Below are positions 16,281 through 26,352 of a stretch of 64,000 bases of DNA, one piece after another (position 1 is the stretch's first letter; each line of letters starts with the position of its first letter). Origin of the DNA: Paraburkholderia sp. PGU19 (GTDB lineage Bacteria; Pseudomonadota; Gammaproteobacteria; Burkholderiales; Burkholderiaceae); NCBI RefSeq assembly GCF_013426915.1, contig NZ_AP023180.1:1860001-1924000 (forward strand), in the 5' to 3' direction. Below the pieces are notes generated by a model. The model was not told the origin of the DNA. It was given only the letters and a program-made list of their open reading frames with translations, and made no database searches. Both the position numbers and the translations under genes were made by a program.

Positions 16281-16297
16281 AGCACCCGACTGGTGCG
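16281..16297 (+). promoter_or_regulatory. NtrC-type enhancer dyad
   Basis: GCACC-CGACT-GGTGC (16282-16296) matches the core of the NtrC consensus TGCACC-N5-GGTGCA, lacking only the outer T and A. It lies about 100 bases upstream of the -24/-12 element at 16383, a normal enhancer distance for an NtrC activator. Confidence 0.55.
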
Positions 16298-16382
16298 CAC
16301 ACGCGCGCGCAGATCGCGATCGCGCTTCAACCTTGTGCACGCATCGCACTCAAAACCGACCAGACTCAAGTAAAGACAGCAG

Positions 16383-16398
16383 TGGCATGCTTATCGCT
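16383..16398 (+). promoter_or_regulatory. Sigma54 (-24/-12) promoter candidate
   Basis: TGGCATG-N4-TCGCT places GG (16384-16385) and GC (16396-16397) exactly 12 bases apart, the RpoN geometry. One base differs from the TTGC(A/T) part of the consensus. The predicted start point near 16409 lies about 40 bases before the riboswitch. With the upstream NtrC-like dyad this suggests induction under nitrogen limitation. Confidence 0.55.
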
Positions 16399-16449
16399 TA
16401 GTGACGTGCAGGAGCCGGTGCAGCATCCGGTTTAGCAGTCACAATCTGG

Positions 16450-23800: not shown

Positions 23801-24501
23801 GTCTCGTGACGACGAAGTACAACCCGGCGCGTACGTGGACCGCCGAGAATTCCGTCGGCATCGGCGGCGCGTATCTGTGCGTGTATGGCATGGAAGGGCC
23901 GGGCGGCTATCAGTTCGTCGGACGCACGCTGCAGATGTGGAACCGCTATCGCGAAGTCGCGGATTTCGCGGGACGTCCATACCTGTTGCGCTTCTTCGAT
24001 CAGATCCGCTTCTACGAAGTCTCCGCCGACGAACTACTGCGCATCCGCGAAGCGTTTCCGCTCGGCCGTTATCCGCTGAAGATCGAAGAGACCGAGTTGT
24101 CGCTGGCCGACTATCAGGCGTTTCTCGAACGCGAGGCGGACGACATCGCGCAGTTCCGCACGCGTCAGCAAGCGGCGTTTCAAGCTGAGCGGCAGCGTTG
24201 GCACGAAGCGGGCAGCAACGAAGACACGCTGGAGCCGCCTGTTATCGCCGACGCGGAAATCGCGCCGCTCACCGACGGCCAGATCGCCGTCGATAGCGAA
24301 ATTGCCGGCAATCTGTGGCAAGTGCGCGTCGAGCCCGGCGCGAGCGTCGAAGCGGGCGACGTGCTGCTCGTGATCGAGTCGATGAAGATGGAAATATCCG
24401 TTATCGCGCCTTGCGCGGGCACTGTCGGCGAGATTCATGTCGCGCCGGGTTCGCCCGTTCGCGCGGGGCAGCGCGTCGTCGTGATCGACCAGCACGCATG
24501 A
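20887..24501 (+). CDS. Biotin-dependent guanidine carboxylase (urea carboxylase family)
   Basis: A single 1204-residue chain with all partial activities. Biotin carboxylase occupies about 1-445 ([20 protein letters not shown], glycine loop [26 protein letters not shown]). The carboxyltransferase follows as an AHS2-like half (about 450-755, [20 protein letters not shown]) and an AHS1-like half (about 795-1060). The biotinyl domain is about 1130-1204 with Lys1167 in [10 protein letters not shown]. In the active-site segment [20 protein letters not shown], Asp705 aligns by position with residue 1330 of Kluyveromyces lactis urea carboxylase. I recall that this is Asn in urea carboxylases and Asp in guanidine carboxylases. 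That, plus the guanidine riboswitch and the Cgd genes, argues for guanidine as substrate. It converts guanidine, ATP and bicarbonate to carboxyguanidine. Confidence 0.93.
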   Translation: [1204 protein letters not shown]

Positions 24502-24549
24502 GACACCTCATTTGACACTTCACTTCAACGCATTAAGGAACCATCGGAC

Positions 24550-26352
24550 ATGGATTCATTCGATCTGCGTCTTCCCGCTGTGCGCGCCGCGTATCGCGAA
24601 GGCCGTGTCACGCCGCGCGCACTGATTGGCGCATTGCGCGAACGCGCCGCGGCACTGAACCCGGACTATCACCTGTTCATTCATCTGCTGTCCGACGCGG
24701 AAATCGAGCCTTATCTCGCGGCGCTCGACGGGCGCGCTGTCGATTCTTTGCCGCTTTACGGCGTGCCGTTTGCATTGAAGGACAATATCGATCTCACCGA
24801 CATTCCGACGACGGCCGCCTGCCCCGCTTTCGCGTATACGCCTCAAGACTCGGCGACACTCGTCGCGCAACTAATCGCACTCGGCGCGGTGCCGATCGGC
24901 AAAACCAATCTCGACCAGTTCGCGACGGGACTCAACGGCACGCGCTCGCCGTACGGCAAGTGCCGCAATAGCGTGCACGCCGCGTATCCTTCGGGTGGAT
25001 CGAGCGCGGGGTCGTCTCTGGCCGTGGCGCTCGGCGTCGCGAGCTTCGCGCTCGGCACCGATACGGCCGGCTCGGGCCGCGTGCCCGCCGCGCTGAACAA
25101 CCTCGTCGGCACTAAGGGAACCAAGGGCTTGCTGTCGACGGCGGGCGTCGTGCCCGCCTGCCGCACGCTCGACTGCGTGACGTATTTCACCGCGACGGCC
25201 AGCGAGGCGAGCGAACTGCTCGCGCTCACCGCCCGCCATGATCCCGCCGATGCCTACAGCCGCGCGAATCCGCAATGGAACGACGCAGCCGCGTTCGGCG
25301 CCGTCACGCGCTTTCACTTCGGCGTGCCGCGTCAGCTGGAATTTGCCGGCTGCGAAGAAAGCCCCGCGCTATTCGCGCAGGCGCGCACGGCGCTCGAAGC
25401 GATCGGCGGCGAGGCCGTCGAGATCGACTTCGCGCCCTTCGTCGAAGCGGCGCGACTACTCTATGAAGGACCATGGGTTGCCGAGCGCTATAGCGTGGCA
25501 GGTGCGCTGATGGAATCGCAACCCGACGCCGTGCTGCCCGTGATTCGCGACGTGCTCGCGAAGGCGCCGGGCGCGACCGCCGTCGATGCATTTCGCGCAC
25601 AGTACAAACTTCAGGCGCTGAAGCAGCGTTGCGATGCCGTGCTCGCGGAACTCGATTGCGTGCTGACACCGTCCATTCCGCGTGCCGTCACGCTCGATGA
25701 ACTGGCGCGCGATCCTATCGGCCCGAACTCACTGCTGGGCTACTACACGAACTTCATGAATCTGCTCGATTACGCTGCGATCGCGACGCCCGCGGGTTTC
25801 ATGCGCAATGGGCTGCCGTGGGGCGTGACGCTGTTCGGCCGCGCGTTCACCGATCAATATTTGCTGAGCATCGCCGATGCGCTGCATCGCAAGCTGAATG
25901 TGCCGCTGATCGGCGGCGCGAAGCAGGATGCCGATGTGCCCGCGCGCGCGGCACGCAACGACAGGATGAAGCTCGTTGTGTGCGGCGCGCATCTCGAAGG
26001 CTTGGCACTCAATGGACAGTTGATCGCGCGTGGCGCGCGCCTCGTCGAGAAGACCGCCAGCGCGCCGCGCTACCGGCTATATGCGCTGACGGGCGGCGGC
26101 GCGACGCAACGGCCTGGCATGACGCGAGATACAACGAACGGCGCGGCAATCGAGGTCGAAGTCTGGGAGTTGCCGGGCAGCGAAGCCGGCTCGTTTCTCG
26201 CGGGCATTCCCGCGCCGCTCGCGCTCGGCAAGGTCGAGCTTGCGGACGGACGCTGGGAAACTGGCTTCATGTGCGAAGCGTACGGTCTTGAAGGCGCCGT
26301 CGATATCACGCAATACGGCGGCTGGCGCGCCTGGCTGCAACGCGCTACCTGA
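24550..26352 (+). CDS. atzF: Allophanate hydrolase
   Basis: Last enzyme of the guanidine operon, 600 residues. The amidase-signature domain (about 1-440) has the Lys77-cisSer151-Ser175 triad visible in GVPFALKDNIDL, YPSGGSSAGSSLA and GTDTAGSGRVPAAL. The C-terminal allophanate-hydrolase domain (about 470-600) includes RYRLYALTGGGATQRPGM and the GFMCEAYGLEGAVDITQYGG end. The amidase domain hydrolyses allophanate to N-carboxycarbamate and ammonia; the C-terminal domain is thought to decarboxylate it. It starts 48 bases after the carboxylase with GGAACC upstream. Products are ammonia and CO2, so the operon yields nitrogen. Confidence 0.96.
   Translation: MDSFDLRLPAVRAAYREGRVTPRALIGALRERAAALNPDYHLFIHLLSDAEIEPYLAALDGRAVDSLPLYGVPFALKDNIDLTDIPTTAACPAFAYTPQDSATLVAQLIALGAVPIGKTNLDQFATGLNGTRSPYGKCRNSVHAAYPSGGSSAGSSLAVALGVASFALGTDTAGSGRVPAALNNLVGTKGTKGLLSTAGVVPACRTLDCVTYFTATASEASELLALTARHDPADAYSRANPQWNDAAAFGAVTRFHFGVPRQLEFAGCEESPALFAQARTALEAIGGEAVEIDFAPFVEAARLLYEGPWVAERYSVAGALMESQPDAVLPVIRDVLAKAPGATAVDAFRAQYKLQALKQRCDAVLAELDCVLTPSIPRAVTLDELARDPIGPNSLLGYYTNFMNLLDYAAIATPAGFMRNGLPWGVTLFGRAFTDQYLLSIADALHRKLNVPLIGGAKQDADVPARAARNDRMKLVVCGAHLEGLALNGQLIARGARLVEKTASAPRYRLYALTGGGATQRPGMTRDTTNGAAIEVEVWELPGSEAGSFLAGIPAPLALGKVELADGRWETGFMCEAYGLEGAVDITQYGGWRAWLQRAT

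Follow-up and report, generated by a model that had tools for sequence, protein, structure and literature searches.

Guanidine riboswitches precede both efflux and assimilation genes, and why bacteria should export or eat the same compound is not obvious. The closest described counterpart of the locus analysed here is a dual-riboswitch operon treated in a review, in which an importer and a deiminase follow a guanidine-I riboswitch, and a carboxylase and an allophanate hydrolase follow a guanidine-II riboswitch. Here we examine an operon of this kind in a 64,000-nucleotide stretch of Paraburkholderia sp. PGU19 (contig NZ_AP023180.1, positions 1,860,001 to 1,924,000; this whole stretch is called the window, and coordinates below are those of the window). 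Judging from its sequence, it is highly likely to be a guanidine-assimilation operon under an NtrC/sigma54 promoter, the message of which would then be gated by guanidine-I and guanidine-II riboswitches. NtrC, Burkholderia and nitrogen limitation are not mentioned in the review, and the sigma54/NtrC layer is what is added here.

Transcriptional data bearing on such operons come from Burkholderia cenocepacia H111, in which an ntrC mutant moved to 0.3 mM ammonium loses the transcripts of I35_7283, I35_7285 and I35_7286 (BCAS0269, BCAS0271 and BCAS0272), the 'urea carboxylase' gene BCAS0272 changing by -6.0 log2 and the other two giving zero reads; 95% of the 150 H111 genes most affected by NtrC are also sigma54-regulated (PMC5491218). 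The likeness to the present locus lies in I35_7283 to I35_7286, a 'urea carboxylase' with its partners that depends on NtrC under nitrogen starvation, and the difference is that the authors speak of urea use, with neither guanidine nor a riboswitch in the main text (PMC5491218). A computed sigma54 regulon spanning bacteria at large has 102 assigned genes in COG3665, 59% of them named urea carboxylase; it does not mention guanidine and mentions a riboswitch solely in the reference list (PMC12316311). Guanidine is not mentioned in PMC12421884.

A preliminary description of this DNA, made from the letters alone, had proposed that the combined wiring be checked for novelty. The dual guanidine-I/II operon is already known, and its NtrC/sigma54 control is known under another name, with NtrC control of a 'urea carboxylase' operon and predicted sigma54 control at COG3665, which we take to be the UAAP family, both in print; the joining of the layers, as an AND gate reserved for assimilation, looks to be the new part. 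At the level of titles and the beginnings of abstracts, we found no literature joining a guanidine riboswitch with sigma54 or NtrC, and Sinn 2021, which reportedly concerns guanidine as a nitrogen source, may mention the link. A comparable logic is that of nitrate assimilation operons, which combine an Ntr promoter with an ANTAR antiterminator (NasR or NasT). There, as proposed here, a starvation signal acts at the promoter and a substrate signal in the leader RNA; the difference is that the substrate is sensed by a protein in those operons and would be sensed by RNA in this one.

A conserved sigma54 element precedes most guanidine-I aptamers

The -24/-12 element of the operon, TGGCATG-CTTA-TCGCT (TGGCATGCTTATCGCT), lies at 16383-16398 on the forward strand, where the preliminary description had placed it. 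It scores 10/12, with two mismatches to TGGCACG-N4-TTGCW, and has the GG-N10-GC arrangement of sigma54 promoters; geometry and conservation together mark it as a probable promoter, and the start predicted from it is 16409, 12 nt past the C of the -12 box. The motif alone is weak evidence, because the window contains no more sigma54-like matches with up to three mismatches than its shuffles do (119 vs 132.5). The strict pattern alone gives 21 matches vs 17 in the control, one of which precedes a gene that we take from its N-terminus to be PII-like and is accompanied by a weak 9/12 dyad. Two RpoN genes and one NtrC gene pass the cut-offs in this genome.

To count as an element in other leaders, a match had to lie in the 120 nt preceding the aptamer and reach at least 9/12, with GG and GC invariant. 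A sample of 299 genomes from the organism's own family, 77 of them with a guanidine-I match, yielded 113 distinct leaders by the aptamer core motif, the window's included. The preliminary description had named the loss of its elements from close relatives as a finding that would count against it; all 113 leaders carry the -24/-12 element (100 mononucleotide shuffles averaged 3.07 and never exceeded 7), and dyads are also kept. The element was found in 4/164 control stretches taken 280-400 nt upstream, and in the aptamers themselves, over their first 110 nt, 3/165 reach 9/12, a measure of background. When the 38 fetched loci with an operon identical in kind to the window's (the same-type loci) were aligned, the element emerged as an island of conservation amid poorly aligned upstream DNA.

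Outside the family, a phylum-wide sample of 398 genomes contained 52 guanidine-I leaders, a count that leaves out two below-cut-off matches (G504 and the third match of G393) and keeps the below-cut-off match of G580. The element is present in 41 of these 52, vs 1.16 by shuffling, the second leader of G555 with its 10/12 element at -76 being among the 41. Among the 154 positive leaders of both genome samples, the distance from the beginning of the element to the aptamer ranges from 25 to 99 nt, so that the predicted start lies ahead of the aptamer or at its 5' end and not inside its core. A protein-based search with the substrate-binding protein of the importer, which is blind to RNA, supplied named genomes: of 563 confirmed stretches the 80 best were kept (15 Burkholderiaceae, 1 Herbaspirillum and 64 records from Pseudomonas or Pseudomonadaceae), and 80/80 carry the element as well as the aptamer core motif. 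Several of the 15 Burkholderiaceae genomes also belong to the family sample, so that the sets overlap.

Seven leaders from other classes of the phylum (L149, L152, L156, L169, L170, L173 and L176) have their sigma54 element 25-27 nt before the aptamer, so that their transcript would start right at the aptamer 5' end. TTGC is the commonest -12 box outside the family (18/41 leaders).

Guanidine-II leaders served as controls for specificity. Twenty of them, from the own family and away from any guanidine-I match, were chosen by hand from the match list, and none of the 20 has the element within 120 nt; leader L192 has one of 9/12, but 183 nt upstream. At the E-value limits applied, the open reading frame after 19 of the 20 matches the SugE model NF008512 (16 over the cut-off and 3 just below); in the remaining leader, L201, the frame starts with GTG and is similar at its N-terminus. 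Efflux genes in the same family thus seem to be without the sigma54 element and to be gated by guanidine alone.

An NtrC-type dyad lies above the promoter

A perfect NtrC-type dyad, GCACC-N5-GGTGC, is present at 16282-16296, as the preliminary description had reported. Its centre sits at about -120 relative to the predicted start, within the 100-150 nt upstream described for NtrC dyads (PMC5491218). It is the only exact copy in the window. The genome as a whole has 23 exact copies vs 12 for a reversed-pattern control, for which reason the dyad alone is weak evidence, and an inspection of the 23 copies for a nearby sigma54 element revealed no other clear nitrogen promoter. A weak second NtrC-like site, CGCTTCAACCTTGTGCA (16323-16339, 8/12), is not significant alone. 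The dyad consensus used throughout is the one that we take to be that of NtrC.

When gapped 4+4 palindromes were counted without bias in the DNA above the promoter, over 101 non-redundant regions, GCAC-N7-GTGC came first, in 21 regions where the null gives 0.47 (standard deviation 0.59); it is followed by GCGC types and GCCC-N7-GGGC. Of its 22 sites, 13 are found at a distance of 80-100 bp above the -24 box. The window's operon has the perfect dyad, and so do six of the seven loci closest to it (group g10, Caballeronia), the seventh (L073) having one base changed. Among the 31 more distant same-type leaders, a slot 75-125 bp above the element contains a dyad of at least 9/12 in 18 (null 0.69, maximum 4 in 300 shuffles) and of at least 8/12 in 30 (null 4.26), the slot having been chosen after the alignment was viewed and the leaders being related. 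The check for the dyad in relatives that the preliminary description had proposed came out in two parts, with degenerate dyads in the same place in 18/31 leaders and the perfect form in the window's operon and six of the seven g10 loci.

Combining the two motifs narrows the field. The composite GCAC-N7-GTGC, 60-90 bases, TGGCA-N8-GCW occurs three times in the 11.2-Mb genome and once in the control. It lies once at the guanidine operon, once before an ANTAR response regulator that has an NMT1-like binding protein after it, and once before nirB, a nitrogen assimilation gene by its model name; we infer that the ANTAR/NMT1 locus serves nitrate. At that locus (L323, G000:C2:204737), where the ANTAR response regulator stands behind the NtrC-sigma54 composite, the same starvation-plus-RNA logic is possibly used for nitrate. 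While each short motif alone is weak, conservation and the composite pattern lift the arrangement far above chance.

Alternative regulators and points of doubt

The dyad, its conservation and RNA-seq on a relative all point to NtrC as the probable activator. The sigma54 promoter might be real and yet be driven by another enhancer-binding protein, given that more than 20 other proteins of the genome match the sigma54-activator core of the NtrC model and that the perfect dyad is missing from most leaders. We consider this improbable, since the top motif of the unbiased scan is the NtrC core, degenerate dyads stay in the same position, the other two composite sites of the genome precede nitrate/nitrite-type genes, and the relevant B. 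cenocepacia transcripts were lost in an ntrC mutant (PMC5491218). Less credible still is regulation by the LysR gene (15313-16269) that lies directly upstream of the operon and codirectional with it, the dyad then being a chance match: no LysR match at 1e-20 was found in any of 82 fetched regions, most of which extend some 1.5 kb upstream from the aptamer, and in Caballeronia sp. NK8 the neighbour of the operon is glyA, on the opposite strand. LysR control was rejected on these grounds. A sigma70 promoter for the operon was also rejected, a consensus scan of 16270-16700 having found no sigma70-like promoter.

In favour of NtrC/sigma54 control, the record of another B. cenocepacia strain has the divergent form of the locus, in which each guanidine-I aptamer is preceded by a sigma54 element and a 9/12 dyad lies between the two. 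Several observations nevertheless weigh against such control. The link to H111 was made through species and gene names and not by locus tag. Kinship among the leaders means that shuffles overstate their independence, and the -12 box is TCGC instead of TTGC in 94/113 family leaders, that of the window (16394-16397) included. A strong dyad of at least 10/12 occurs in only 23 of the 80 named loci, one of which was not evaluable. Furthermore, 11 of the 52 phylum leaders are without the element. In a check of 22 genomes, RpoN is present in all 11 that were chosen as having the element, but also in 8 of the 11 with an element-less leader. Speaking for sigma54 control, on the other hand, three element-less leaders come from genomes of family f55, in which RpoN is absent, fragmentary or below the cut-off. 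G393 carries leaders of both kinds, and the element-less leader of G580 has none of the operon's genes downstream by tblastn. Stacked NtrC/sigma54 and riboswitch control is, with these points considered, very probably real in sequence and general.

Two guanidine riboswitches and a possible translational switch

The preliminary description had seen three stacked controls in the leader, a dyad, a sigma54 promoter and a full ykkC aptamer. All three are present, the guanidine-I (ykkC) aptamer at 16450-16569 on the forward strand being a full-length match to RF00442 (model positions 1-107, 75.9 bits vs a gathering score of 63), but a fourth layer had been overlooked. This is a guanidine-II (mini-ykkC) aptamer at 20818-20865 on the same strand, 21 nt before the carboxylase start (RF01068, model positions 1-48, 43.3 bits vs a gathering score of 32), with a pair of hairpins whose loops match. 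Its twin motif GGACGRCC is found between UAAP2 and the carboxylase in 38/38 same-type relatives, and in all seven same-type operons that were run through Rfam both riboswitch classes score above the gathering threshold. The organism's own genome (five contigs) has one guanidine-I and two guanidine-II matches, the other guanidine-II match preceding a SugE-family gene.

How guanidine-I acts was approached by structure prediction. The 5' strand of aptamer stem P2 (GACCTCG, 16528-16534) is predicted to pair, in the absence of ligand, with CGAGGTC at 16614-16620, which contains the Shine-Dalgarno sequence GAGG and resembles the P2 3' strand GAGGTT (16537-16542). The Shine-Dalgarno strand would thus imitate the P2 3' strand. 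In the predicted ligand-free leader this pairing has a probability above 0.8 in 35/38 leaders (leader L058 was skipped in the pairing analysis). These predictions suggest that guanidine-I probably acts on translation, by freeing a Shine-Dalgarno sequence otherwise paired with P2. Speaking against it, the pairing fails in the remaining three leaders (L108, L101 and L090), and forcing P2 to form in the model leaves the Shine-Dalgarno largely paired (mostly 0.2 unpaired), probably in a small local hairpin. The whole-leader fold is not unusually stable (z -1.44).

Termination of transcription, intrinsic or Rho-dependent, is a possible but less likely mode of action, to which the review lends weight by describing guanidine-I as usually a transcriptional ON switch. 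Set against it are the predicted Shine-Dalgarno/P2 pairing and a consensus scan of 16270-16700 that found no intrinsic terminator. The H111 message, moreover, is made in a medium for which no mention is made of guanidine (PMC5491218), which would fit a translational switch.

Between the predicted start and the aptamer, a hairpin is predicted at 16412-16433 on the forward strand. Its sequence is kept in the aligned relatives except for five g10 leaders without it. It would stand at the very beginning of the transcript and may protect the message.

Operon genes and their relatives

The operon reads on the forward strand throughout, and profile matches agree with the series of importer, both deiminase subunits, carboxylase and allophanate hydrolase that the preliminary description had listed. 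The substrate-binding protein of the importer (16627-17694, TIGR03427) is followed by the permease (17725-18540) and ATPase (18537-19310) of an ATP-binding cassette transporter, both identified by profile match. Next come the carboxyguanidine deiminase subunits UAAP1 (19328-20035, TIGR03425) and UAAP2 (20050-20694, TIGR03424), a biotin-dependent carboxylase with the model name 'urea carboxylase' (20887-24501, TIGR02712) and allophanate hydrolase (24550-26352, TIGR02713). The ATPase and UAAP1 starts were refined to 18537 and 19328 by analogy with the annotated Caballeronia operon. TIGR02712, TIGR03425, TIGR03424 and TIGR02713 all score over their cut-offs, completing the set of the guanidine carboxylase pathway, and by its context of riboswitches and deiminase the TIGR02712 protein would be a guanidine carboxylase.

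In a midpoint-rooted FastTree phylogeny, the substrate-binding protein of the window falls in one clade, with support 1.0, with seven copies from g10 (Caballeronia), to which it is 94-96% identical, and the three nearest copies from its own genus fall outside that clade; the neighbours of these loci differ. A nucleotide match to plasmid pNK83 of Caballeronia sp. NK8 covers 16435-26337, at 86.7%, and ends there, NK8 keeping the promoter elements though blastn no longer aligns its upstream DNA. It appears that the operon moves as a cassette. A different layout is seen in L049, L050, L053 and other loci of the Burkholderia-like group g12, where about 500 bp separate two divergent guanidine-I riboswitches; both have a sigma54 element of their own, and an NtrC-like dyad lies between them.

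Implications for guanidine use

In the model that we propose, nitrogen starvation would lead phosphorylated NtrC to activate sigma54 RNA polymerase, and hence transcription of the operon. The guanidine-I riboswitch would gate the importer and deiminase genes by guanidine, and the guanidine-II riboswitch would do so for the carboxylase and hydrolase genes. The outcome would be an AND gate, in which starvation gates transcription and guanidine gates expression.

We lean, with some reserve, towards extending this model to the Pseudomonadota. Assimilation operons would as a rule be under NtrC/sigma54 and guanidine riboswitches, the two classes of which would set separate thresholds for import and carboxylation, efflux would respond to guanidine only, and bacteria that lose RpoN would have rewired the promoter. 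If this is true, published NtrC targets named 'urea carboxylase' would be re-labelled as guanidine genes, and riboswitch tests in nitrogen-rich medium could miss the effect. With a starvation promoter on the assimilation branch alone, these bacteria would export guanidine when nitrogen is plentiful and eat it when nitrogen is scarce.

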